Shown piece after piece: positions 3,509 through 27,767 of a stretch of 37,951 nucleotides of DNA. The notes beneath the pieces are model-generated. The model saw only the letters and a list, made by a program, of their open reading frames with translations. It did not search any database and was not told the DNA's origin. Source of the DNA: Chrysochromulina tobinii (Eukaryota; Haptophyta; Prymnesiales; Chrysochromulinaceae); assembly GCA_001275005.1 (NCBI GenBank), contig JWZX01002472.1:1-37951 (forward strand), read 5' to 3'. Numbering within the stretch: position 1 is the first letter of the stretch; every line of letters begins with the position of its first letter. The position numbers and the translations under genes were made by a program.

Positions 3509-5419
3509 TCACAGGGACGCGCCCAGCTCCGCCCCATACTGCTGCATCATCTTGCGCATGCCAGCGAGGAAGTCCTCGCCCGCGACGTTCACATCCGCCG
3601 CGCCGTCCCCAGCCTCGAGTGCATCCCCGTCATCACCCCCGGGTTCATGCTCGTCCCCGTGCTGTGGCATCCGCGCGGCGAGGCACGAGAGCTTGGGGGC
3701 CGGCGTGAGGAGCGGCGAGGTGGCGGTGGCCATGGGCGCCTTGAGCGGCGGCGGCTGGCACGCTCCCTCTTCCTCGCCCTGAGCCGCCGCCGTCGTCGCC
3801 GCCGCCGTCTGCTGCTGCCGGCGGCGACGGAGGAGCTTCTGACGAAGCAGAGCAGTCCTCTCACGCTCGAGCCGCTCGGCACGCTGCTCATCGGTCTCGC
3901 GCGCGAGCAGCGCCTCGCGCCGTGCGTGGCGCGCCTGCTGCCTGCCGCGCGCGCCGCGTGCCGCCGCCTGGACCGCTGTCGCCGCGGCATGCGAGGCTGC
4001 CTGACGCGCTGCTACTCGTCGAGTGAGCTCCAGTCTCCGGAAGGCCATCTGCACGGCGGTCGCGGCCTCGAGAGCAGTGCGCCGGCGGCGTGCGTGCTCG
4101 GCAGCCATGCGCCGGCGCGCGTGCGCCTGCAGCACCAGAGCAGCATGCATTTCGATCCGTCGACGGACCACAGCCCGTGCGCCAGCTAACCGACGAGCGC
4201 TCGACTGCAGCTTGATCGCTGCGCCCACGGCCGCGAGGAGATGCGCCTGACGCTCGCGCTGCCGACGCTGGAGGCACGTGGCGGCGCGCGCCTCGACCTT
4301 GTCCGCGAGCAGCACTTCGCGCAGCACGACGATCGCACCCGAGTGCGCGGCGACATCGCGCGAGGCGGGGAGGACTGTCTTGCACACGCGCTGCACGATC
4401 GCAGCGAGCGATCGCCGTCCTGTCGAGTCGAGTGGCTGCAGTTGGCTGATGAGCACCGAGGAGAGCATGCGCCCCCCCTTGGCGCGGAGCAGCTCCACTA
4501 CCATCTCCTCCGTCACCACGCGCGCATGCATGTGCTCACCACGGCGCTGTCCCTCCGCGCCGCCGCTCGGGACAGCGCCGCTCGTCATCGAGGAGCACCG
4601 GGAGGCCTCGGCGGCGGCGGCGCTCGTGAGGGCGCTGGCCTCCCCGTCGGGCGCGTCGCGCAGCATGAGCACGGGCACGAGCTTGCCGTGCCCGTCAAGG
4701 CGCTCCGTCACGCGCGCCACCTCGGCGACCACTCGCGCGAGACGTTTCTTGGCTCCGGCGTCAGCGGGGGAGATGAGCTTGGCGAACTGTGCGGCGCTCA
4801 GGCCGCCCGGGCTCGAGCCGAGCACCTTGCGCACGAGCTCGCGCTCGACTGACGTCACCGGCTGCGCGGCGTCGTCGGGCGACAGCACCGATGCGGGCGA
4901 CGTGCCACCACCGCGCACGACCTTTGCGTCCGACGAGGGCGGCGTGCGCGCACCCTCGCGGCGCAGGCGCAAGATAGGACCGGCGCCCGGCCTGTCCGAG
5001 GCGGCGAGCTCGCCCACGTCCGAGATGGCCGCGACGAGCAGCTGCCGCTCGGCCTCGTCCGCAGGGGCGAAGCGCTCGCGCAGCGCCTGCACGTCCATCT
5101 GCTCGCCAGGCTGGGCCAGCAGCAGTGCACGCACGGCCATGGCGCCGATGGGCAGCGGCGGCGAGTGCGCGGCACTGCTGCCGCGCAGGCGCACCGCCGG
5201 CTCGCCTGCCGGGGTGGTGCGCATGTCGCACAACCTTGAGATCGCCCGCGTCAGCTTGAGCCTCTCGGCGTCGTCGCGTGGAGAGAAGAGGGCGGAGAGC
5301 GCGGCCGCCGGCATCTCGGTGCCCGGCTGCGAGAGTAGTACCTCATGGACGGCCTGCTCGGAGATGGGCAGGTGCTGCGGCGGCACTGGCGGTTGGCGGC
5401 GGGAGGCCATGGCGGGCAT
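3509..5419 (-). CDS. IQ-motif protein with four N-terminal helical modules
   Basis: 636 aa from the ATG at 5419 (MPAMASRRQPP). An ATG at 5572 would add 51 basic residues, but that stretch carries promoter-like motifs shared with the divergent sulfotransferase gene, so I prefer the inner start. The N-terminal half holds four diverged modules of about 50 residues, each opening like AVHEVLLSQPG, AVRALLLAQPG, LVRKVLGSSPG or MVVELLRAKGG, followed by a short hydrophobic stretch, SP/AP/QPxD and a basic-hydrophobic helix. I do not recognise the module; a winged-helix-like fold is possible. The second half has several IQ motifs (AAIKLQSSARRLAG, ALVLQAHARRRMA, ATAVQMAFRRLEL, ATAVQAAARGARGR), expected to bind calmodulin or centrin-like proteins, then a Pro/acidic tail. 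The peptide RRGEHMHA between modules three and four matches the micro-insertion family described at 21081-21625. Confidence 0.8.
   Translation of the reverse strand: MPAMASRRQPPVPPQHLPISEQAVHEVLLSQPGTEMPAAALSALFSPRDDAERLKLTRAISRLCDMRTTPAGEPAVRLRGSSAAHSPPLPIGAMAVRALLLAQPGEQMDVQALRERFAPADEAERQLLVAAISDVGELAASDRPGAGPILRLRREGARTPPSSDAKVVRGGGTSPASVLSPDDAAQPVTSVERELVRKVLGSSPGGLSAAQFAKLISPADAGAKKRLARVVAEVARVTERLDGHGKLVPVLMLRDAPDGEASALTSAAAAEASRCSSMTSGAVPSGGAEGQRRGEHMHARVVTEEMVVELLRAKGGRMLSSVLISQLQPLDSTGRRSLAAIVQRVCKTVLPASRDVAAHSGAIVVLREVLLADKVEARAATCLQRRQRERQAHLLAAVGAAIKLQSSARRLAGARAVVRRRIEMHAALVLQAHARRRMAAEHARRRRTALEAATAVQMAFRRLELTRRVAARQAASHAAATAVQAAARGARGRQQARHARREALLARETDEQRAERLERERTALLRQKLLRRRRQQQTAAATTAAAQGEEEGACQPPPLKAPMATATSPLLTPAPKLSCLAARMPQHGDEHEPGGDDGDALEAGDGAADVNVAGEDFLAGMRKMMQQYGAELGASL
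4524..4550 (-). repeat. Family-1 micro-insertion copy in IQ gene
   Basis: The plus strand reads TGCATGTGCTCACCACGGCG after GCGCGCA, the same core as the copies in the Munc13-like gene 17 kb away. It encodes RRGEHMHA. A weak direct repeat (TCACCACGCGC and TCACCACGGCGC) flanks the AT-containing centre. Confidence 0.6.
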
Positions 5420-14232: not shown

Positions 14233-16102
14233 ATGCTACGGCTGTCTGAGGGAGGGGCGCGACGTCTGGCCTCTATACATCATCACGTCATTGTCGCCCT
14301 CTTGGTGCAGCTCCCCGTGGTCGCGGGGCTAGCTCTTGGTCCGGCCATGCGGCATGTGAACATGGTTCGGCCCGTTCTGGCCCCTCGCATCGTGCCGCCT
14401 GTGGCCAAGGTTGCGCAATGGCAGCATGCTGAGCTTGCCTACGAGCTGCTGCACGAGCGCGTGCAGGCGTCTCGCGTCGGGCCGCTAGTCCATTCAGCGC
14501 TGAAACTCCTCCAAGATGTCAGTTGGCACTGGAGTGACTGGGTGAAGCCACTCGCCGAGTCGCTCTGGCAGCCGCTCGACATTGCGACCATCGTGGGCGT
14601 CTGGGCACTGCGAGGGCCAGCCTCGCGCCTCGCGCACAGCATGGCCAGCGACATTGCGCCCGCCGAGTGGAAGGGCCCCTATGAGGAATCGATCTTCCCG
14701 GTGCTCGCGGAGGTCGCACTCCAGTTTGCCAGGCTCTTCTTCGTGCTGCTCCTCGCGGATGCGGCATGCTGGACGCTCTCGTGCACCAAATTGATGTCCA
14801 AGATTGTCGCGGGCGAGATCCCGACCGTGCTCGACACGGTCGGCTACTCGTTCCTCTCTGGCTTCCTCTTCACGCGCGTCAAGACCCATCTGGTCCGCAA
14901 GTCAGCTGGCTCGAGTGCCGCTGAGAAGCTCAAAGGAATCCCCGCGACGCTCGATCGGCTCTGGGGCGCTCTGATCTGGTTCTTCGCGGGCGCGGGCTGC
15001 GCCCAGGTGCTCTCAGTCGAGCTCGGCTTCCGTCTCAAGTCAGTCCTAGCCCTCGGAGGCTTTTCTTCCATTGTCGTCGGCCTCGCGTGCCAGACGCCCC
15101 TCGCCAACGTTGTCAAGGGACTCATCATCGCAGCGAGTGGCTCCTTCGGCACCGGCGACAAGATCGCAAGCGCTGGCATGACGGGGGTCGTCGAGGACTT
15201 TGGGTGCGTGCGACTTTGCGCCTGATTGCACCAGGATGGCACCGGAATGCACCCGATTCAGAGGGCTCCGCACCTGATGTGGCACCTGATTATGGCATCT
15301 GATGTGGCATCTGATGTGGCATCTGATTGCACTCGCCTGTCTGAGTGCTCTGCATCTGTGCCCGGGCGCATCAGGTGGTACCAGAGCCGACTGCGCACGG
15401 AAGAGAACGATCTCGTCACACTGCCCAATAGCCTGCTTGCCGAGAAGCAGGTGATTGCCACTGATTGCCTTTGCTTGCCTCTGAACGCATCTGATTTTAT
15501 CTGATTGTGTATCGGTTTGCATCCGATTGCATTCGATTGTATCTGATTGTATCTTTTATCTGATTGCATCTCCGATCGGCAGATTGTCAACCTCTCGCGT
15601 CGGACGGCGAAGAAGGAGGTGGTGAGGCTCCGACTCAAGTACGATGATCTGGCAAAGATCCCGCAGGTGATTGCAACTGATCCGAGTGCACCGGAGTGCA
15701 CCGGAGTGCACCGGAGTGCACCGGAGTGCACCGGAGCGCACCGGAGTGCCTCTGATTTCAACCGATGGCATCCGATGGCCCCTGAGTGCTCCTGAGTGCG
15801 CCTGATTGCAGTTGATCAGCCAGATCCGCGAAGTCGTGGCGAGGATGCCCAATCTCGCTCCGGGGAAGCCGGGGGAGGCGTACCTGGTCGATTACGGCAA
15901 GAGCTCGATTGAGCTCGAGGCCTCCATCAACGTGGCCACGACGGCGCCGAACAAGCAGATCCGGCAGGACTTCCTAATCGAGATCGCGAAGGTGCTCGCA
16001 CGGACGGGGGTGCGCTTCGAGAAGCAGAGCGGTGGCAGCGGCGGCGAGCTCGGCGGCGGCGGCGAGGAGGACGAGGAGGACGAGGAGGACGAGGAGGACT
16101 GA
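14233..16102 (+). CDS. MscS-family mechanosensitive channel, four exons
   Basis: Exons 14233-15203, 15375-15450, 15583-15666 and 15812-16102 encode 473 aa. Introns are phase 2, 0 and 0, all GT-AG. The N-terminus is a probable signal or membrane segment (VIVALLVQLPVVAGLALG). Helices follow at about 120-140, 155-180, 195-215 and 250-270. The pore-lining TM3 is SVLALGGFSSIVVGLACQTP, then LANVVKGLIIAAS. The beta domain runs across the splice junctions as KIASAGMTGVVEDFG|WYQSRLRTEENDLVTLPNS|IVNLSRR, which is classic MscS sequence. The C-terminus is acidic (EEDEEDEEDEED). MscS channels release osmolytes or ions under membrane tension; a plastid or plasma-membrane location cannot be decided. The three introns are all low-complexity repeats, and each interrupts the most conserved part of the domain. 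Confidence 0.9.
15204..15374 (+). repeat. MscS intron 1, GATTGCAC/GATGTGGCATCT repeats
   Basis: A 171-bp phase 2 intron (GTGCGTGCG to GCGCATCAG) built of units such as CTGATTGCAC and GATGTGGCATCT. Confidence 0.8.
15451..15582 (+). repeat. MscS intron 2, CTGATTGC(A/C) repeats
   Basis: A 132-bp phase 0 intron from GTGATTGCCACT to CGATCGGCAG, made of TGATTGCATC-type decamers. The exon end CCGAGAAGCAG resembles the intron end CCGATCGGCAG (8 of 11). Confidence 0.8.
15667..15811 (+). repeat. MscS intron 3, GTGCACCGGA decamer array
   Basis: A 145-bp phase 0 intron from GTGATTGCAACT to GATTGCAG. Its centre has six copies of the decamer GTGCACCGGA (near 15688-15745). Both edges carry GCAG(G/T)TGAT. 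Confidence 0.85.
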
Positions 16103-16613: not shown

Positions 16614-19600
16614 TCATCGGCGCCTAGCCGCTCGGGCTGCCTTGAGCTGGCGCGCATGCCAGGCCTTGGCGACCTCATCGGACCGGTGGGCAAGCACCTG
16701 TGCACGATGAGATGCAATCAGATCCAGTCAGGGAGGTCATCAGGGAGGCTATCAGGGAGGCCGTAAAGATGCCATCAGGGCTCATCAACCCACCTGCACG
16801 ATCTGTGGAAGCGTCCACACGTCACCTCGCGCCGTGGTGAGCACGCCACCTCGCGCCTCGGCCACGTCCAATGTGCTCACTACGGCGCGCTCACTACGGC
16901 GCGCCTCGGCCACGTCCCACGTGCCGATCACAGGCCACGCGCCGTGCTGGGCAAGCGGTGCGCCCAGCGCCTCCACCTCCCGAAAGGCGGGGGCGCGCGC
17001 GCCGTGCTGGGCGCGAGGGGTGGCACCGCTCGCGACAGCGCCCCCGCTCGTTCCGGCGGCGGCGGCGGCGGCGGCGGCGCGTACGCTCTCGTGGTCTTCC
17101 CACAGCTGGAGCAGCGGCTCGCTTGGTGTGCCGAGCAGTCGGAGGAGTGCATGCAACGGCCGGCACACCTCGTCCACTCGCGTCGGAGAGACTCCCTGGG
17201 GCACGGCGCTCGCGTCCTTGGCGATGAAAAAGGCGCGAAGCTGCTGCAGGTCCTGATGGGCACCAACGGCACATCCGGAGGGTCGAAAGTGCGCTGATTG
17301 CAATCAGGGGCTCAATCAGGGGCTCAATCAGGGGCTCAATCAGGGGCTCAATCAGGGGCTCAATCAGTGCGCAATCACCTGATGAACCAACGGCACATCC
17401 GGAGGGTCGAAGGAACGCTCCGGGCCGCTGTGGAGCAGTACGTGCTCGATAGCGTGGCAGCACTCGCGTAGGATGGCGTCTACTAGCCGTTCACGCAGCA
17501 TCGGCTGTGGCGTACTGCGCACGATCGTGCCCAGCGCCGTGTTGAGCGCCTTGAGCACGTCGCGCAGCCGGGCGTCGGCCACCCGGGGCTGGTACAGGTA
17601 GGAGAGCATCGAGGGCTGCGGGGGACGAGTTATCAGGCGGTACTCAGGGAGGCAATCAGCGAGGCAATCAGGGAGGCAATCAGGGGCCATCACGGCCCCC
17701 CTCCGGCACGCCATCAGGCGCCATCAGACGCCATCACAGGATGTACCTGCAAGTCAACAAGGACCACCTTGGCGCCGAGCAGCTCGCACACGCGCTCGAG
17801 GCACACCAGCTGCGCCTGACGCGCCCTCGCAAAGCACGCCGTCGTTGGCGCCGTCATGGGCGAATCCCCTCCGACGCCCCCCCCGGTGCCCCCCCCGACG
17901 CCCCCCCCAAGCAGGTGCGCCTGCAGCGGCGTCACGAGCTCCTCGTAGAGGGCCGGTAGAAGCTCCCACACCCGCCCGAGCGACGCGCAGCGCACGAGCA
18001 GCGAGGTCAAGGGGAGATTGCGCGCCGTCTCGAGCACCTTCTCGTCACGGCGCCGGTTGGCAACCTCACTACTGCGCCAGAGTGGCCACTGCGTGCAGCC
18101 AGTGCAATCAGATGCGATCAGATGCAATCAGAGTGGCCACTGCGTGCAGCCAGTGCACTCAGATGCAATCAGAGGCCACCGGTGGCAATCTGTGTCAATC
18201 AGGTGCACTACGATGCAATCACCTGCCGCGTGAGCCATCCGAGCGAACCGCCGCCGACGCCACCAGTGCCGCCGCCAGCGTCCCCCCCGCCCGACTCCGC
18301 CGCCGCCGCCGCCGCTGCTGCTGCCCCCGCCCCCCCCACCAACGCCGGCTCCCGCGCCGACTGGGGGAAGCGCGACAGACGGGAGGAGAGCACTGAGCAC
18401 AGAACCATTCTCCGCGCCGACTCCAGCGACGTTCTGCGCGGACGCACGCACGGCGGCGGCGTCCACTAGATCATGCGTGAGCGCCGCCGCCAAGCCGGCG
18501 AAGGAATCGTCCGTGTGATCGAGGAGGCGACGGAGCCCATTTCGCATGAGCGCGTCAGGCAGCCGCATACGCATCAAGCTTAGGAACGAGGCGCGCACCT
18601 GTGGAAAAGGGGGAAAAGGCGCCGTGGTGAGCACTTGCATGCTCAGCATCAAGCTCAGGAACGAGGCGCGCACTATCTCGAGCAGCTCGTCGACGACGCC
18701 AGAATGGAACGCGCCTCGGTCGGCATCGATCGGCTCCCACCGAAACCCATGGGCCTCGCCTTGGCGCTCGCCACGGCGCCGGATCCGAGCGAGCACTTCG
18801 TCAAAATGAGACTGCTCATTAGCGACCCACGCGTTCACGAGAGGCTCGACGTGCGTGAAGGCCGCCGAGAGCTGCGCGTGCGTCCACAACGGGTGGCGTC
18901 AGTGGGCATCAGCCATCAAGGCAATTAGAAGAGGCAATGACCTGCGCATCCTTCCAGAGTGGCCCATGATGAGGGAGGCAATCATGATGAGGGAGGCAAT
19001 CAGAGGCCATCAAGGCAATTAGAGGAGGCGATGACCTGCGCATCCTTCCAGAGTGGCCCAAAGCGCATGTTCATGCGGCTCATCGCACGCCAGAGCGGCA
19101 GGAACTTTTCAAAGGCGCCGAGTTGCGATCCGCGACGTCGAGCGAAGAGGAGGAGCGCGCGTAGTGCGTGGCTGACCTCCTTGAGGAAGAGCTGATGAGA
19201 GGGGGCAATCAGATGTCATCAGAGGCCATCAGAGGCGGAGCGCGCGCAGTGCGTGGCTGACCTCGATGAAGAAGAGCTGGCGAGGGGGGCAATCAGTGGC
19301 ACTCAGGTGCAGGTCAGGGCCATTACCTGCCCCCACTCAGCCGTGGCGAGCTCGGCGATTTGAGGGGCGTACTGTGCGAAGACCGGATGGAAGAGTGTCG
19401 ACTCGAGCTCGAGCTTCGAGCTCACGGACTGTGTGAGCACGAGTAGCTGATGAGGGGGGCACTCAGTGGCACTCAGTGTGAGCACGAGTAGCTGATGCGG
19501 GGGGCACTCAGTGGCACTCAGTGTGAGCACGAGTAGCTGATGCGGGGGGCACTCAGTGGCACTCAGTGTGAGCACTAGTAGCTGATGCCGTCTCGGGGCA

Positions 19601-22600
19601 TAGATCCATGTCAGTGGCACTCCAAGGCACTCGGGGAGGCGAATGGAGGCACTCGGACCCACCCAGAGGCACTCAGAGGCACTCAGAGGCACTCAGAGGC
19701 ACTCAGAGGCACTCAGAGGCAATCAGAGGCAATCAGAGGCAATTGGAGGCAATCAGAGGCAATCAGACCCACTCAGAAGCACTCGGAGGCAATCCCACCT
19801 GATCCAAATCGAGGCATTGCTCCGTGTCCGCCTCGTCCCAAACGCCCTCATCCTCCGCCGCTGCCGCCGCTGCCGCCGCTGCGCCATGTGCCACACTCCC
19901 AGCACGGTACGCCTGCACGCACCGGTCGAGGGGGGCACAATCAGTGGCCATCAGTGGCCATCAGTGTCACAATCAGTGGCCATCAGTGGCCATCAGGAGA
20001 GCCATCAGTGGCAAGGAGAGGCGATGACCTGGCCGCACAGGTCGAGCCAGCAGCGGCGGATGGACGAGCGGCAGAGTGCCGTCACTTCTTCAAGCACCGG
20101 AGGCGGCGGACCGCCGAGCACAAGACCCCAATTAGGCAAGCCCTCGCCGTCGTACCATGCGGGCAGTGACATCCACGGAACTGTGAACAGCGCAGGAGGC
20201 AGGGCGGGCACCGGCGAAGGTTGCGACCCCAATCGAGCTCGGCTCATCTCGACGTTGCCGTTGGTTTCGGCGTCGTGGTGGGCACCTTCGGCGCTCACCA
20301 CGGCGCCTTCCGCCGCAGTGTCGCTGGCAGCGGAGGCGGCGCCGTCGCGAGCGCCCCGTGCCCACCACGACGCCATGGACGCATTCGTTGAAGCGAGCCA
20401 TTGCCAGACGGCAGCCGAGCGGCTCGTCTCGTCGCCCATATTAGGCAACTCGCCACCGCCGCCCTCGCCTTCCCTGCCGCCCTCGCGGTCGCCGCCGTCA
20501 CCGCCATCGCCGCCGTTGCCGCCGTCGCCGCCCTCCTTCACAGAGTCTTCACAGGCCGCCTTCGTACGAGTCTCACCCGCCTTCACAGAGTCGACTACCA
20601 AATTAGGGTCGACGACCCAACTCAGCGCGTCGCCGCTGACCTTTGTGAGGCCGACGCTCGTGTAGTACTCTGGAGGGAGGAGACTTCCTAATATGGGAGG
20701 GAGGAGACTGCCTTTCGCGCCCGAGTCCTCCACGTCGGCGATTGGTTGCGGGGGGGGAGGCGTGGGAGAGGGCGGTCGGAGTTCGGTACTGCCTAATATG
20801 GGAGAGGGCGGTCGGAGTTCGGTACTGCCTAATATGGGAGAGGGCGGTCGGAGTTCGGTCGCTCGGGCGGCGAGAGGAGCGCCGTGGTGAGCACATGCAT
20901 GCAGGGCGCCACCCGCGTCGCTCGCTTGGGCGGCGAGTGGAGCGCCGTGGTGAGCGCCGCCGCTCTCGCCGCCGATCGTCGTGAGGAAGGGCTGCTCCAC
21001 CGGATTGCCTAACATGGACTGCTCCACCGGATTGCCTGGCTTGACCCGCGCTGTCGAGAGCTTCTGTGGCGTCAAACCTCCACTGGCCGCCTTGGCCGCT
21101 CTCTCTGCATGCACGTGCTCACCACGGCGCTCCGCAACGTCATCATCACTGGCCGCCTTGGCCGCTCTCGCTGCTTCACGCGCCGCCTCGGCGTCCTCTG
21201 CATGCAAGTGCTCACCACGGCGCGTCGCTCTCGCTGCTTCGCGCGCCGCCTCGGCAGCCGCCGCCGCAAGCTCAATGATAGCGGCGACAGCCTCACTGGC
21301 CTCCTCCGGCGACGAGCGCTCGCATTGTCCCAAATTAGGGTCTGTCGAGCCCGGGCCCACCGGTGGCGCCACGTCATCACCACGGAGGAGCTCGGGTGCG
21401 CGTGAGGGTAGTGGCCGCGGGCACTCCTCCTCTGCATGCACGTGCTCACCATGGCGCTCCTCCACGTCCTCTCGTGAGGGTTGCGGCCGCGGGCAGGCCT
21501 CCTCCTCATCCGCTGCTGCCGCCTTGACGAGCTCCTCGTCCGCCGCCACCTCCACCACGCCCTCTTCCCACTCCTCCTCTGCATGCACGTGCTCACCACG
21601 GCGCTCCGCCACGCCCTCTTCCCACGCGATGGCGGCTTCGTCCACCACCACCAGCGGCACGCAGGCTGCGTTGAGGGCGACTGCGTCGAGGTCGTCGGCG
21701 CCGTGCTGGGCGTCACTCCTAAATAGGCAGGTGGAGCTCGGGACGGCGCTCGGAAGGTCAGGGGGTAGACCGGGGAAGGCGCCGTGCTGAGCGGAGATGT
21801 GGGGAGGTTGGGCGGCGATGCGAGCGCTAGCAGCGGGGGAGACGGAAGAAGTGTGAATGTGAATGCGAGCACTAGCAACGGGGGAGACGGCAGAGGTGTG
21901 AATGTGAATGCGAGCGCTAGCAGCGGGGGAGACGGCAGCGGAGGCGGCAGTGGAGGCGGCAGCGGAGGTAGAGGCGATGGCGGAGGCGGCAGCGGAGGCG
22001 ATGGCCGCCGCTGCGGCGTCCGCGTGCGACGAGCTGCCCGCGACGACGCCACTCAGCCCAGGGATCGCCATGCCAAGGACCGACCCAGCCGCCGAGGGCG
22101 TCACCTCGGGGGGCATCTCGGGGGGCACCTCGGGGGGCTCTAGGTATGCCGAGTACAGGTGCACGTACGCGTCGAGCATGTGCTGGATGAGTGCAACGGG
22201 CGCCGTCGGCAAGGTCGAGTGGAAGTTGCCGAGCAAGAGCGAGAAGTGGTTACGCATGCAACGGCAGATCTCATCGAGGGCGCGCGCCTCGACGCTCGCG
22301 ACGGCGCCCTGGTGCGCCGGCGTGCCGGGGTGCGGCGCCGTGTTGGGCGATTGCGCCGTGTGGGGTCGTGGCGCCGTGTTGGGCAGTGGCGCCGTGTTGT
22401 TGGGCAGCTGCTCGAGGCGCCGTAGCAGCGCGGCGGCGAGGTCGATGCTTTCGGGGTGGCGTCGGTGCATCGCAAAGGTGGCCTCCGCGAGGCAGATCCG
22501 GTGCACCTCGATGGGGACTCGTAGGCAGCGTCGCACGCGCGCGAGCAGGATGACGATCGCCTCCGTGCAGTCGAGAGGCACACCATCGTCACCAAATGTA

Positions 22601-22975
22601 GCGAGGAGCAGCAGAGCGTACAGCTTGAGCGAGATTGGGTAGGGCAGCTCCAGACGATGCTCGAACGCCGCCGTGGCCACCTCGTCCTCGAGGGAAGCGT
22701 ATGCCTCCCACACGCACCCGTGCAGCGCGCGCACCAGCGAGGTGTACTCGACCTTCCACAGATGAGACGCGCTCCGAGATGGGATCTCCGCGCTCCGAGA
22801 TGGGATCTCCGCAGGGAGCACCGGGGTCCACTTAGCCGTTGGCGGAGGTGCACCTCGAGAAGGCGCCGTGCTGAGCGCCGTGCTGACGGAGGGCACGGGA
22901 GCGAAGATCGGCGTCGTCGTGGCGCACGAGATGCTCAAGCTATTGCTCAAGCTATTGCTGAATGGCGGAAGCGGC

Positions 22976-23008
<33 letters not shown>

Positions 23009-23820
23009 GAGGCGGTGGAGGCGGCGGCGGTGCGCGCGGCCGTTTCGGCTGCCTCCACAGCGAGGGTGGACGCCTCGAGCGCCGTCTCGAGCGCTGCGAT
23101 CGCAGGGTACCCTGCCACGTGCTGCAGGATGCGCTGGCAATGGCGGCGGAGCTCGGCGATCAGTTTCGTCACGTGTGGAGTGTCGCCCGGCGCACCGCCG
23201 CCGCCGGCGTCGCGGCCAGCCGCTGCGCCGGAGCTGGCGGCCAGCGCGCTCGCGGCGCTATTGGCAGCCTCCGGCCCGCAGCCCGCGCCCGCGCCGGCGC
23301 CGGAGTAGGAAGACGCGGACGCGCCCGAGTGGCGCAGGACTCCGATCAGCCCGGCGAGCGTGAGCGCGATCTGCCGCTCGGCCCACGCGCAAAAGGCCTC
23401 GGGCGATGCAAAGTCCGCCGGTCGCTTCTGTACGAGTAGCAGCAGCCTGTAGTGAAGGTACGGCTGCAGCTGCTCGAGGTGGGCCGGGTCGTCGTAGCCC
23501 TCCAGACGCAGCGTCGCCGCAATCACCTCGGGCAATGTGGAGGGCGTGACGCCGAGAAGATGGCCAAGCACGTGCCGGAGCGCGCGATTGTCGCGCTCCG
23601 ACAGCTTGTGCAGCTGCGCCGGCATGCACAGAAGCAGCGCCTCGCAGCTCAGCATGTGCAGCTGCTGCCAGTCGAGCCGCAGGTCGTCCTCCACGTCGGC
23701 AAAGGGCAGCCGGCCCTCGCCGTGCACGCGCGCCACCGGCTGCGAAAGGGCCATGTCCTGTCGCGAGCCCGTCCGGCTCGAGGGTTGCTCCTTGGGCAGC
23801 ATGCTGGCGAAGAAGTCCAT
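16614..23820 (-). CDS. Munc13-like (DUF810/PATROL1-type) MHD protein, eleven exons
   Basis: Exons 20029-23820, 19799-19912, 19327-19446, 19036-19191, 18674-18871, 18422-18598, 18223-18360, 17747-18088, 17379-17615, 16794-17252 and 16614-16697 give 1938 aa; all ten introns are phase 0. Exon 1 has two conserved blocks (about residues 40-170 and 390-560, the latter with HRICLAEATFAMHRR) around long low-complexity inserts. Exons 5-6 match an MHD1 core (LVNAWVANEQ, FRWEPID, FHSGVVDELLEI, RMRLPDALMRNGLRRLLD). Exon 7 has LVRCASLGRVWELLPALYEEL. Exons 8-10 match MHD2 and the family's end (LRERLVDAILREC, LQQLRAFF, VLAHRSDEVAKAW). No C2 domain is visible. Relatives tether or prime secretory vesicles, and plant PATROL1 delivers plasma-membrane proteins. 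The family call rests on motif memory. Intron 5 and the 61-bp intron are the least certain. Confidence 0.68.
16698..16793 (-). repeat. Munc13-like intron 9 with duplicated exon edge
   Basis: 96 bp of GATGGCATCT/CTCCCTGATAGC-type repeats. The exon end ATCGTGCAG|GTG recurs at the intron end as ATCGTGCACAG|GTG. Confidence 0.75.
16836..16920 (-). repeat. Family-1 core copies in exon 9, both orientations
   Basis: GCGCCGTAGTGAGC occurs twice on the minus strand between copies of GACGTGGCCGAGGCGCG. Next to it, CTCACCAC in the opposite orientation sits between GGCGCGAGGTGGCGTG and GGCGCGAGGTGACGTG. The encoded peptide shows DVAEAR flanking RSERAVVST. Confidence 0.65.
17253..17378 (-). repeat. Munc13-like intron 8: clearest target-duplication intron
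   Basis: The end of exon 8 (17379-17411) is repeated almost perfectly at the 3' end of the intron (17253-17287): 26 identical bases followed by a slightly altered ATCAG. Between them lie six 12-bp units of GGGGCTCAATCA (plus strand). The donor is CAG|GTGATTGC and the acceptor is CCCATCAG. Confidence 0.9.
17616..17746 (-). repeat. Munc13-like intron 7 with GGAGGCAATCA repeats
   Basis: 131-bp intron, donor CAG|GTACATCC, acceptor CCCCCGCAG, containing CCATCAGGCG and GGAGGCAATCA-type units. Confidence 0.75.
18089..18222 (-). repeat. Munc13-like intron 6 with duplicated exon 7 start
   Basis: The acceptor region and first nine exon bases (TGGCCACTC) are duplicated. A 26-bp direct repeat flanks decamers of the GATTGCATCT type. 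The end of exon 6 (GGCTCACGCGGCAG) also resembles the acceptor (GGCTGCACGCAG). Confidence 0.75.
18361..18421 (-). other. Probable 61-bp intron inside Munc13-like exon 6
   Basis: GTCGGCGCGG to CTTCCCCCAG, flanked on both sides by AGTCGGCGCGG. Splicing here shifts the frame so that the following exon reads LGWLTRQ and joins exon 7 in phase 0. Without it the frame becomes an Arg/Gly/Trp-rich string. Confidence 0.5.
18572..18673 (-). mobile_element. Family-1 insertion forming a 75-bp intron, 27-bp direct repeats
   Basis: On the minus strand a 27-bp sequence starting GTGCGCGCCTCGTT (18647-18673) is repeated at 18572-18598 with one mismatch. Between the copies lie 48 bp with GCATGCAAGTGCTCACCACG and a pyrimidine tract ending CCACAG. 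The first copy supplies the GT donor and the insert supplies the branch/pyrimidine/AG. Removal leaves one copy and restores RASFLSLMRMRLPD. The intron is 75 bp with no in-frame stop, so retention would add 25 residues. Confidence 0.72.
18872..19035 (-). repeat. Munc13-like intron 4 with a duplicated exon 4 end and donor
   Basis: A 55-bp stretch holding the end of exon 4 and its donor (19006-19060) recurs at 18912-18966 with two changes, so two equivalent donors exist (19035 and 18941). Decamer-type units separate the copies. The acceptor TGGACGCACGCGCAG also resembles the exon end TGGAAGGATGCGCAG (12 of 15). Confidence 0.8.
19192..19326 (-). repeat. Munc13-like intron 3 with a duplicated exon 4 start
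   Basis: The first 39 bases of exon 4 and its acceptor (19152-19199) recur inside the intron at 19237-19284 with a few changes, separated by GCCTCTGATG-type units. A second CAG acceptor is therefore present. Confidence 0.8.
19447..19798 (-). repeat. Munc13-like intron 2: decamer array and 45-bp repeats
   Basis: 352 bp. 19660-19790 is a run of plus-strand decamers GGCACTCAGA then GGCAATCAGA. 19433-19590 has 45-bp units that each repeat the exon 3 acceptor and first bases (CATCAGCTACTCGTGCTCAC). Confidence 0.85.
19913..20028 (-). repeat. Munc13-like intron 1 with duplicated exon edge
   Basis: 116 bp of GGCCATCAGT-type decamers. Exon end CTCGACCTGTGCGGCCAG and intron end CTCGACCGGTGCGTGCAG match at 15 of 18 positions. 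Confidence 0.85.
20590..20617 (-). repeat. AT-core micro-insertion (AAATTAGG) in exon 1
   Basis: GTCGACTACC and GTCGACGACC flank AAATTAGG; the added unit is 18 bp. The peptide reads VVDPNLVVDS. Confidence 0.6.
20672..20709 (-). repeat. AT-core micro-insertion (CCTAATATG) in exon 1
   Basis: A perfect 14-bp repeat GGAGGGAGGAGACT flanks TCCTAATATG; the unit is 24 bp. The peptide reads SLLPPILGSLLPP. Confidence 0.75.
20764..20859 (-). repeat. AT-core micro-insertion, two copies in a 36-bp tandem
   Basis: A 24-bp sequence beginning GGGAGAGGGCGGTC occurs three times, separated twice by ACTGCCTAATAT. The peptide is STELRPPSPILG repeated. Confidence 0.8.
20865..20955 (-). mobile_element. Family-1 micro-insertion in exon 1, 63-bp unit
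   Basis: A 28-bp direct repeat (20865-20892 and 20928-20955, one mismatch) includes the core GCGCCGTGGTGAGC and flanks ACATGCATGCAGGGCGCC and further bases. Unit 63 bp, in frame. The peptide repeats AHHGAPLAA. Confidence 0.65.
20992..21037 (-). repeat. AT-core-like micro-insertion (CCTAACATGG) in exon 1
   Basis: A perfect 19-bp repeat CTGCTCCACCGGATTGCCT flanks AACATGGA; unit 27 bp. The peptide reads GNPVEQSMLGNPVEQ. Confidence 0.7.
21081..21169 (-). mobile_element. Family-1 micro-insertion, perfect 23-bp flanking repeat
   Basis: 21081-21103 equals 21147-21169. The 43-bp insert contains CTGCATGCACGTGCTCACCA followed by CGGCGCTCCG. Unit 66 bp, in frame, no stop. The encoded insert includes ERRGEHVHAE between two AAKAAS peptides. 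Confidence 0.75.
21164..21255 (-). mobile_element. Family-1 micro-insertion, 29-bp flanking repeat
   Basis: 21164-21192 and 21227-21255 match with one mismatch. The 34-bp insert contains CTGCATGCAAGTGCTCACCA. Unit 63 bp. The peptide is AEAAREAARA-TRRGEHLHAED-AEAAREAARA. Confidence 0.75.
21401..21495 (-). mobile_element. Family-1 micro-insertion, 23-bp flanking repeat
   Basis: 21401-21423 and 21473-21495 match with two mismatches. The 49-bp insert contains CTGCATGCACGTGCTCACCA followed by TGGCGCTCC. Unit 72 bp. The peptide is CPRPQPSR, then ERHGEHVHAEEE, then CPRPLPSR. Confidence 0.75.
21555..21625 (-). mobile_element. Family-1 micro-insertion, perfect 17-bp flanking repeat
   Basis: CCACGCCCTCTTCCCAC at 21555-21571 and 21609-21625 flanks 37 bp containing CTGCATGCACGTGCTCACCA and CGGCGCTCCG. 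Unit 54 bp. The peptide is WEEGVAERRGEHVHAEEEWE followed by EGV. Confidence 0.75.
21820..21935 (-). repeat. Family-3 micro-insertions (ATTCACATTCACAC) in 45-bp tandem
   Basis: A 26-bp sequence (GCGAGCGCTAGCAGCGGGGG and six more bases) occurs three times, separated twice by 19 bp ending GTGTGAATGTGAAT. Unit 45 bp. The peptide repeats SARIHIHTS-VSP. Confidence 0.75.
22340..22405 (-). repeat. Tandem GGCGCCGTGTTGGGC units in exon 1
   Basis: Four imperfect copies of a 15-21 bp unit with core GGCGCCGTGTTGGGC encode PNTAP-type repeats. The core is the short form of family 1. Confidence 0.65.
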
Positions 23821-24172
23821 CCCGTCGGCTGTGTGAATAGTGTCGGTTCAGTCAAAAGTCAAGTCAAGTCACGGCGCTTCATCGGCTCGAGTTTGGCCCC
23901 CTACTTCTCTCCTACTTGTTCTCCGAGGGCACGTAAGTCAGCATTCACGACGTGTCGCCTGGATCCCACTCCGGGCTCCACCATCTCCATCGACTCCCGT
24001 CCTCGCCAGCGTGCTTCCAATAGGCCTGCGCTGTTGTTTTGTTGACTTGACTTTTCGGGCGGCCGCGTTCGTTACATGTACATCTTTGGCGCGTCGTACA
24101 GCCGACCCTCTTTTGGCAGTTCCGTTCCTTCGAGACCTGAGGAGCCTGTTCGCCGTCTTTCGTCGGACGAGC
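23821..24172. promoter_or_regulatory. Divergent intergenic region with TTGAC pentamers
   Basis: This lies between the Munc13-like start (minus) and the IQ-protein start (plus). A minus-strand run of TTGAC units (GTGACTTGACTTGACTTTTG) lies about 35-55 bp upstream of the Munc13-like ATG. A plus-strand TTGACTTGACTTTT is at 24042-24055, about 120 bp upstream of the other ATG. A longer TTGAC run is upstream of malate synthase. Confidence 0.35.
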
Positions 24173-26206: not shown

Positions 26207-27767
26207 ATGTCGGTCACCAGCCTAAGCGCAACCTTGCCACGCCCTACGAGCCCCACCCTATTCAACGGCACGCTCTGGGGCTCGGTCGAGTTCGAGCGCA
26301 AGGAGAAGCGCCTTCCGGGGTACGAGGAGGTGATGGATCGCATGAACGCAAAGTGTGGACGGCGCATCCAGTCGGCTGCGGTCATGCTGGACCGCGACGT
26401 CGAAAGAATCGAAAGAGGCGAGAAGTTCGCATGCAAGCTTGCGGATAAGCGTAAGGCTGATCTCAGCTCGATGGAGCTGCTCGACCACATGCGGCAGAGT
26501 ACCGCTCGCTCGGCGCGGAGGACGCTCCTCAGGTCGCGCGACGGTCGCGTGGCCGGCAACTCGCGGTCGCCCACGCTGCGGACCTCGCAGACCGACCAGC
26601 AGCTCTCCGAAGCCATCCGCGAGACGGCGCGAGAGAGCCTCCGTAAGGACGAGTTACGGAAGAGGCAAGAGTGGGCCCAGCGCGCCGTCGACCTTGTGAG
26701 TGCTGCCCGCCACAGGCACAATGCGCCTTCCTTGTGTCCCCATCCCACCGCCACCGCCCCGCCCCGCCCTGCTCGTCACCTCGCGCGTTGTGCAGGCGGA
26801 GCTGCGTGCGTCGGAGCTCGAGTTCCAGCGGCAGATGGCGGAGGCGCGTAAGGAGATGGCAGCGCAGCAAGAGCGCGAGCAGATGCAGCGCAGGGTCGAG
26901 ATCGAAGAGGCGCGCAAGCGAGGCCAGGTGATGGCCACTGATCACCTTCGTTAGCCTCTGATGGCCTCAGAGGCCCCCTGATTGCATCTGACGGAACGCC
27001 CGCGCCCTCGAGGCCTGCTGACGGCAGCAGGACAACTCGTCCTAGCGGGAGGCCTCTAATGGCGTCTGATGGCGTCTGATGGCGTCTGATGGCGTCTGAT
27101 GGCCTCTAATGGCGTCTGATGGCGTCTGATGGCGTCTGATGGCGTCTGATGGCGTCTGATGGCCTCTGATGGCCTCTGATGGCCTCTGATGGCCTCTGAT
27201 GGCCTCTGATGGCAGCTGACTGTATCTCCGTGCTCGCGAGGGTAGCTGGACAACTCGACCGAGCGCGAGGCTGAGCGTATGGTCGTCGAGAAGAAGCGGC
27301 AGGAGCACTCGATGGTGCTCAAAGAGGCGATGGACGCTCGTCTCAGGGAGAAGGAGGCGCGCGAGCTAGCACGCAAGGAGCGCTCTGTGGCCGAGGCGGT
27401 CGCGCGCGAGGCCGCCGACGCGGTGCGCCGTCGCGAGCGCGAGAGCCTCAGGCTGATCACCGCGTCCAACCGGGCAGCAGAGCTAGCGCGGGCGTCGGAA
27501 AAGGTGTGGCTGGAGGCGCAGGCGGCGGCGTCGAGCGCCGAAGCAGAGCTGCTCAAAAAGCGCCAGGCACTGAGCATCCTTTATGGCGACGAGCCCCGCC
27601 CCGTCGATTCGCTCCTGGCCATCGACAAGCTCAAGAAGCGCCTCGACGAGAAGCGGACGCGCGAGGCGAGCGCCAAACAAGGCCTCGAGATGGCGACCGC
27701 GGCGGCGGCGGCGGCAGAGAGGAAGGCGGAAGAGGCAGTGGGCGTGGCGAAGACGCCCCGCCACTAA
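26207..27767 (+). CDS. Coiled-coil protein, three exons
   Basis: Exons 26207-26695, 26796-26927 and 27246-27767 give 380 aa. Both introns are phase 0. Intron 1 is ordinary (CTT|GTGAGT to GTTGTGCAG); intron 2 is a 318-bp decamer array. Exon joins keep one long Arg/Glu/Ala coiled coil: RKRQEWAQRAVDL|AELRASELEFQRQ and EEARKRGQ|LDNSTEREAER. The N-terminus (MSVTSLSATLPRPTSPTLFN, then GTLWGSVEFERKEKRLPGYE) is globular-looking. The last 120 residues include a break (LSILYGDEPRPVDSLLAIDK) and a basic-Ala tail. It resembles axonemal or cytoskeletal coiled-coil proteins in style, but I cannot name it. Confidence 0.77.
26928..27245 (+). repeat. Coiled-coil gene intron 2: sixteen decamers between copied exon starts
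   Basis: 27051-27210 is sixteen tandem decamers of GGC(G/C)TCTGAT or GGCCTCTAAT. Before them (27023-27053) is a copy of the exon 3 start with its acceptor (GGCAGCAGGACAACTCG), which now carries a stop; the real copy is at 27241-27271 (GGTAGCTGGACAACTCG). The exon end GCGAGGCCAG also resembles the acceptor GCGAGGGTAG. Confidence 0.88.

Follow-up and report, generated by a model that had tools for sequence, protein, structure and literature searches.

Introners have been described in Micromonas, Aureococcus, a Chrysochromulina sp. MAG, Symbiodinium and others, and in the part of that survey available to us the characterised families have duplications of 3-9 bp, with terminal inverted repeats in 72 of 177 testable families (Gozashti et al. 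2022; PMC9860276). For Daphnia, the available sections of a review report that 43% of gained introns are flanked by direct repeats, and that many recent intron gains elsewhere have an origin that can no longer be read (PMC3443670). The genome paper of the freshwater haptophyte Chrysochromulina tobinii gives an average of a single intron per gene, and the portion available to us holds no mention of introners (PMC4580454). Here we describe a 24-bp unit that recurs between long direct repeats in a 37,951-nucleotide stretch of C. tobinii DNA (the window) and throughout the genome. Judged from sequence, its copies probably form a very small intron-derived insertion family, a 'micro-introner', in both anatomy and predicted intron-making role; splicing in vivo and the mechanism of insertion are both things that we infer.

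The genome searched comprises 53.15 Mb in 2,253 contigs, of which the window is C1325. A malate synthase frame in the window gives a 99% match to a protein of the 'Chrpa1 / Chrysochromulina_OHIO' genome, which we take to be that of C. parva. The window holds seven matches to the unit, against 0.01 expected by chance, five of them inside a long open frame on the minus strand; the other two, at 18619-18642 and 4524-4547, had gone unnamed in an earlier, sequence-only reading. This frame had no match in Pfam at 0.001, and its residues 700-1060 had no relative at 1e-5, the model of its own genome included. The features are as follows.

20005-23847, minus strand: long open frame of 1,280 residues, host of the exonic copies
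20879-20902, minus strand: 24-bp unit, exonic, sense to the minus-strand frame (sequence match)
20918-20942, minus strand: direct repeat copy 1 of unit 20879-20902, period 63
20855-20879, minus strand: direct repeat copy 2 of unit 20879-20902, period 63, 3 mismatches
21107-21130, plus strand: 24-bp unit, exonic, antisense to the minus-strand frame (sequence match)
21081-21103, plus strand: direct repeat copy 1 of unit 21107-21130, 23 bp, period 66, copies identical
21147-21169, plus strand: direct repeat copy 2 of unit 21107-21130, period 66
21200-21223, plus strand: 24-bp unit, exonic, antisense (sequence match)
21163-21192, plus strand: direct repeat copy 1 of unit 21200-21223, period 63, 1 mismatch
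21226-21255, plus strand: direct repeat copy 2 of unit 21200-21223, period 63
21434-21457, plus strand: 24-bp unit, exonic, antisense, 1 mismatch
21401-21423, plus strand: direct repeat copy 1 of unit 21434-21457, ~23 bp, 2 mismatches, period 72
21473-21495, plus strand: direct repeat copy 2 of unit 21434-21457, period 72
21581-21604, plus strand: 24-bp unit, exonic, antisense (sequence match)
21550-21571, plus strand: direct repeat copy 1 of unit 21581-21604, period 54, 1 mismatch
21604-21625, plus strand: direct repeat copy 2 of unit 21581-21604, period 54
18619-18642, minus strand: 24-bp unit in type A intron layout (below), with a branch-point-like sequence, then pyrimidine tract and CACAG
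18646-18673, minus strand: direct repeat copy 1 of unit 18619-18642, 28 bp, its GTGCG start the inferred 5' splice site
18571-18598, minus strand: direct repeat copy 2 of unit 18619-18642, 1 mismatch, inferred start of the downstream exon
4524-4547, plus strand: 24-bp unit with no detectable flanking repeat (sequence match)

Repeat lengths in the window were taken by ungapped extension with mismatches allowed. In position order, the five exonic copies have direct repeats of 25, 23, 30, 32 and 22 bp and periods of 63, 66, 63, 72 and 54 bp, all divisible by three; for unit 21434-21457 the ungapped call runs on to 21432 (32 bp), its tail beyond ~23 bp being diverged. The earlier reading of this DNA had proposed at least five copies of one shared short insert, each in a different flanking duplication, each adding a multiple of three bases and preserving the frame of the exon. 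All five were found in their places between direct repeats, with the flanks differing each time, the periods as proposed and every copy within the open frame. The repeats themselves also stood, with lengths of 22-32 bp by ungapped extension in place of 17-29 bp; the proposed element of 35-50 bp gave way to a conserved unit of 24 bp accompanied by optional left or right modules. The four plus-strand copies, antisense to the frame, share one reading frame and yield the peptide RRGEH(V/L)HAE, in one case as RHGEHVHAE; the minus-strand copy at 20879-20902 yields LHACAHHGAP. These exonic copies are the in-frame minority of the family.

The unit has the consensus GCATGCA(A/C/T)GTGCTCACCACGGCGC and a constant length, which we set at 24 bp because 11-mers taken along the consensus and counted in 207,838 bases become abruptly more frequent at GCATGC and drop past GGCGC, and because C follows the 23-mer in 231 of 237 copies. 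Judged from sequence, TGCTCAC within it resembles a branch point. Searching the genome with two mismatches, as the earlier reading had proposed, the 20-mer returned 1,763 copies (862 + 901 by strand) and its reversed control 0; GCATGCAAGTGCTCACCACGGCGC has 461 exact copies in the genome, against 0 for its control. Both unit edges serve exactly as insert ends in 17 copies at 13 loci, several of them tandem arrays, with the unit masked in the scan. Read from the sequence, the ends of the unit are reverse-complementary over 2 bp only, short of a terminal inverted repeat. Two other identities were rejected: a 24-nt telomere-type repeat, as the units in the copies read by eye are parted by flank and do not run head to tail, and a known structured RNA, as the window has no Rfam match at the gathering threshold.

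Flanking repeats were scored in the window, in 20 stretches no longer than 10 kb and in 100 shorter ones, 121 in all, chosen among the earlier entries of two match lists with 100 matches listed in each. With units masked, 237 distinct copies in 119 of these stretches were scored against 5,000 cross-locus pairs, each joining the left flank of one copy to the right flank of another; copies were located via the unit itself, and the set covers unit-bearing inserts only. A repeat score of at least 14 was reached by 170 of the 237 copies and by 57 of the 5,000 control pairs, in a test that the sequence-only reading had proposed for the whole genome. The counts were 155 and 22 at a score of at least 16, and 123 and 2 at a score of at least 20. 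Repeats have a median length of 27 bp and a 5-95% range of 18-45 bp. No repeat at score 14 was found in 67 of the 237 copies, for which age may be the explanation. Stand-alone copies, with no second unit within 80 bp, reached score 14 in 81 of 117 cases, against 7/5,000 for the control. In the 70 stand-alone copies of intron type, mean repeat identity is 95.7% and 26 pairs are perfect; the median distance is 51.5 bp between the repeat copies and 79 nt from the start of the repeat to the 3' splice site.

These numbers bear on two other accounts. Plain local tandem duplication of unit-holding segments by unequal crossing-over or slippage, with no mobility, would suit the arrays at L042, L061, L086 and L126 and a window rich in short tandem repeats, but duplication alone does not suffice for the 81 stand-alone copies, each with one unit between two local flank copies, nor for three paralogs (below) with a single flank and no unit. 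It is contradicted for stand-alone loci and holds for arrays, in agreement with the earlier view that this is not simple tandem duplication, and as a general account we regard it as highly improbable. That selection alone keeps the unit as an intron splicing signal, the repeats being incidental, would fit a likely branch point inside the unit and is harder still to credit: the 24 bp are unchanged in exonic antisense copies apart from a mismatch in one of them, and the frequency of repeats far exceeds the cross-locus control. We observed that at L018:2047-2204, L042, L086 and L126 repeat and unit occur several times in tandem, some periods being divisible by three. The window also contains arrays of 10-/12-bp repeats such as GGCGTCTGAT and GAGGCACTCA (15664-15823, 17301-17379, 18103-18221, 19636-19795 and 26913-27260), which resemble runs of branch-point-like CTGAT; similar runs fill the introns of a second family described below.

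Most of the copies read resemble the downstream end of an intron, not an exonic peptide. On the sense side, 152 of 237 have a pyrimidine-rich 3' splice site within 45 nt, against 15/237 on the opposite strand and 723/5,000 at random positions, a feature that the earlier reading had missed. In the commonest layout, type A, an exon is followed by G|GTRCG and the remainder of the repeat, the unit, a pyrimidine tract, CACAG and the repeat again as exon. Here the unit side brings a branch-point-like sequence, the tract and CACAG, the GT comes from the duplicated exon, and taking out exactly one period restores the exon. GT opening the first repeat with AG just ahead of the second occurs in 56 of 170 copies, tied at the top of the 256 dinucleotide pairs (median 4) solely with CA/GG, which is the same layout offset by one base; the antisense orientation gives 2 cases. 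Genome-wide, the unit followed by N5-20 and CACAGGTNCG has 177 matches, and the control 0.

Type B is the mirror image: a repeat ending in CAG, then GTRCGTTGATTGCCACTGATGACCTGCCTT, the unit and the repeat ending in CAG again, with GT carried by the insert and AG taken from the duplicated target. Its inserts finish on the unit's right edge or close to it, with a gap of 0 in L023:1365, L048:168 and L062, of 1 in L019:6134, L023:1867 and L048:251, and of 5 in L044; the exception, L120:840, has a gap of 42 that spans a second unit. Type C would be unspliced; in L042, L078, L120:489, L126 and L018 its units have exact edges and periods divisible by three. Of 33 copies without a 3' splice site, 24 have a period that is a multiple of three, against 36 of 111 intron-type copies (Fisher p 4.9e-5, with copies that are not independent); in the intermediate classes the counts are 9/17 for copies whose 3' splice site lies at a greater distance and 3/9 for type-B-like copies. 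By locus, the 17 loci with a copy lacking a 3' splice site divide into 9 with only multiples of three, 5 with only non-multiples and 3 mixed, and several of the non-multiples in this class resemble introns by eye. In a strict exonic class, drawn from a smaller copy set with some poorer copies skipped, 5 of 8 loci have multiples of three (p 0.09).

If the repeats are target duplications, relatives of the host genes should hold empty sites with one copy of the flank, as the earlier reading had foreseen, and three such loci were found through paralogs. Of 52 joined-flank sequences built, 19 were searched, the loci again coming from a smaller copy set with some poorer copies skipped. A diverged paralog was recovered for 3 of the 19, and all three are intronless with a single copy of the flank read through (L113/C2040, L107/C1992 and L074/C2204); for 16 of the 19 queries none was found in the genome. 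C2040 reads AEVRKLQSAKATRLREIAV, where its counterpart on C348 has AEV[RARLAVKATKL], the unit, the tract and [RARLAVKATKL]RELAI; the protein is presumably EF-hand-like. C1992 reads NPVRTNEIPRQIPSQAWYM, with the insertion of its C256 counterpart after PPVRT, in what we assume is a TM9SF-type protein, and C2204 reads SATLVIAYIMWKRGLAYDDA, with the insertion of its C37 counterpart after VIAYVMWTRG. The predicted spliced protein of L074 (C37) is matched across the junction, at 95% over 329 residues, by P0122, a 441-residue protein from a 1,645-bp JGI contig; P0122 may derive from a transcript after splicing or from an allele that lacks the insertion.

Six predicted spliced proteins, from loci of the same kind of reduced set with some poorer copies skipped, were compared with Pfam: a JmjC match spans the junction in L070, the match of L010 lies below the curated cut-off, and 4 of the 6 had no match. 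The L079 joined flank matched only the near-identical contig C498, which is filled alike. Near-identical stretches occur in C692/C760, C101/C235 and C65/C498, which may be alleles or duplicate assembly; these pairs would be useful for presence/absence comparison.

The three layouts suggest how new copies could arise. Entry into a gene would each time duplicate some 15-45 bp of the target. In type A, the unit, pyrimidine tract and CACAG would be inserted and the duplicated target would start with GT; duplication and insert together would make a new intron of ~65-95 nt, the insert bringing the branch point and the 3' splice site and the host lending the 5' splice site. In type B, a left module with GTRCG would be inserted with the unit, and the duplicated target would end in AG. 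In type C, the unit, with or without short filler, would be inserted, stay unspliced, keep the frame and become peptide.

We tentatively attribute insertion to the repair of staggered double-strand breaks, a reading that we hold at a little under even confidence. Fill-in of both overhangs would produce the duplication, and during repair a short piece would be copied from a different copy, in many cases one close by. Such repair should leave an insert between direct repeats whose length varies, as we find. Among copies on the same contig with unrelated outer flanks (31 contigs, 288 pairs; 835 pairs with shared outer 11-mers excluded), similarity over the 15 nt next to the unit is 0.463 against 0.370 permuted (0/1,000), and 0.427 against 0.367 (0/1,000) when three outstanding contigs are removed. 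L031 and L032, ~4 kb apart on C665, have 24 nt upstream of the unit in common and different repeats. Together these observations suggest a nearby DNA template. Between transposition and templated repair, both raised by the earlier reading, the evidence favours templated capture, though not decisively.

The long, variable duplications argue against a standard transposase and fit either staggered-break fill-in or target-primed reverse transcription. The latter would have excised intron RNA fragments reverse-transcribed into staggered nicks, as LINE machinery moves SINEs, and we consider it possible though doubtful. Duplication length would vary with target-primed staggered nicks, as it does here (18-45 bp), and the unit would be the piece kept around the branch point, in keeping with inserts that are intron pieces centred on the branch-point-like sequence. 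The same layout also occurs in members of a second family of intron 3' ends, unrelated to the first, and the genome contains reverse transcriptase domains (21 RVT_1 matches). However, target-primed copying leaves a fixed 3' end and a truncated 5' end, a pattern absent here: type A ends in CACAG, but inserts of types B and C lack the intron 3' end and finish at the unit's right edge or close to it, which speaks against 3'-anchored reverse transcription. No tail was seen by eye, and the same-contig similarity favours a DNA template.

Random template capture would not be expected to reuse the exact edges of the 24-bp unit, and this keeps an integrase reading alive. A DNA integrase or transposase recognising the unit, with a long, loose stagger in the target, would explain why the unit is conserved whole, with 11-mer counts sharp at both ends, C after the 23-mer in all but a few copies (231/237) and both edges reused as insert ends. 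It is nonetheless quite unlikely in our judgement, since duplications scattered over 18-45 bp without a set length and a unit lacking a terminal inverted repeat are atypical of such enzymes, and the part of the introner survey available to us gives 3-9 bp for characterised families (PMC9860276). A related formulation, also unlikely, is that a 24-bp branch-point cassette is inserted as such by dedicated machinery making 15-45 bp staggers, the host exon becoming the other half of the intron in two mirror arrangements.

Other inserts share the repeat layout. CTGATTGCNTCCCTCATCAGG, an intron 3' end that differs in sequence from the unit family, has 2,067 matches at no more than one mismatch and 0 in the control, and a de novo scan found both members and near relatives of this second family in the same layout, for example at L019, L025 and L016. 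A third, very short insert, CCTAATATGG / CCTAACATGG, which we take to be CArG-box-like, lies between local direct repeats with periods of 24, 36 and 27, all multiples of three; the repeat scan located it in the window as follows.

20672-20858 and 20992-21037: third insert, CCTAATATGG / CCTAACATGG

These two families suggest that the process is more general than the unit. At L130/L131 (C2040, C348), a second-family intron, GTCTGATTGCCTCGCTCATCAG, lies just downstream of the empty site of the unit and is also absent from the paralog. A further observation concerns L069:4495-4517, where the exact unit, the tract and CACAGGTGAG sit at the extreme end of IMG/VR contig IMGVR_UViG_3300027760_000958; its other frames are bacterial or phage-like by eye, and the contig is possibly chimeric.

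The origin of introns is an open question, and these copies, a fair share of them with perfect duplications, expose the inserted part, the duplicated part and the half supplied by the host, and thereby offer a direct look at the possible birth of introns. The two spliceable outcomes and the in-frame one show which products selection will tolerate. Duplications of this length point to a repair-like or retroposition-like insertion, not to a usual transposase. Since C. tobinii was cultured for RNA sampling, according to the accessible part of its genome paper (PMC4580454), splicing and insertion should be testable.

Compared with the known systems, as set out in the available portions of their reports, the family is closest to introners: both place near-identical insertions at many unrelated gene positions, creating introns there (predicted ones in C. 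tobinii), and both carry one splice site and take the other from the target duplication, in a direction that differs by family among introners (PMC9860276). The C. tobinii set likewise comprises many sequence-similar predicted introns at unrelated positions, with intronless homologous sites for the three loci that have a diverged paralog. Its duplications, however, are variable and span 18-45 bp, outside the short 3-9 bp range, and a 24-bp unit serves both borrowing directions and unspliced exonic copies as well; terminal inverted repeats are not universal among introner families with duplications either. In Daphnia, the inserts of gained introns are reportedly mostly unrelated to one another. 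Staggered-break repair there resembles our case in its repeat-flanked new introns, with staggered ends filled in around an insert, but the Daphnia repeats are short, whereas those of C. tobinii are longer and the same unit recurs (PMC3443670). Tandem genomic duplication of AGGT also turns a duplicated exon piece into an intron and a splice site source, yet it involves no insert, and the duplicated AGGT yields both splice sites (PMC3443670); in C. tobinii an insert would provide the branch point and one splice site. The introner elements of Amoebophrya share direct repeats at the exon-intron borders of repeated introns, but these are 3-5 nt long, with inverted repeats of 8-20 nt and mostly non-canonical splice sites (PMC7789003), in contrast to the long direct repeats and the GT and AG of the present family. 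The unit is not named in the titles or abstract openings that our searches of the introner and intron-gain literature listed, and a C. tobinii introner family may already stand in a published supplementary table. As far as our searches go, four features appear to be new: duplications this long and this variable, a unit of 24 bp, a single unit that borrows splice sites in both directions, and exonic copies that keep the frame.
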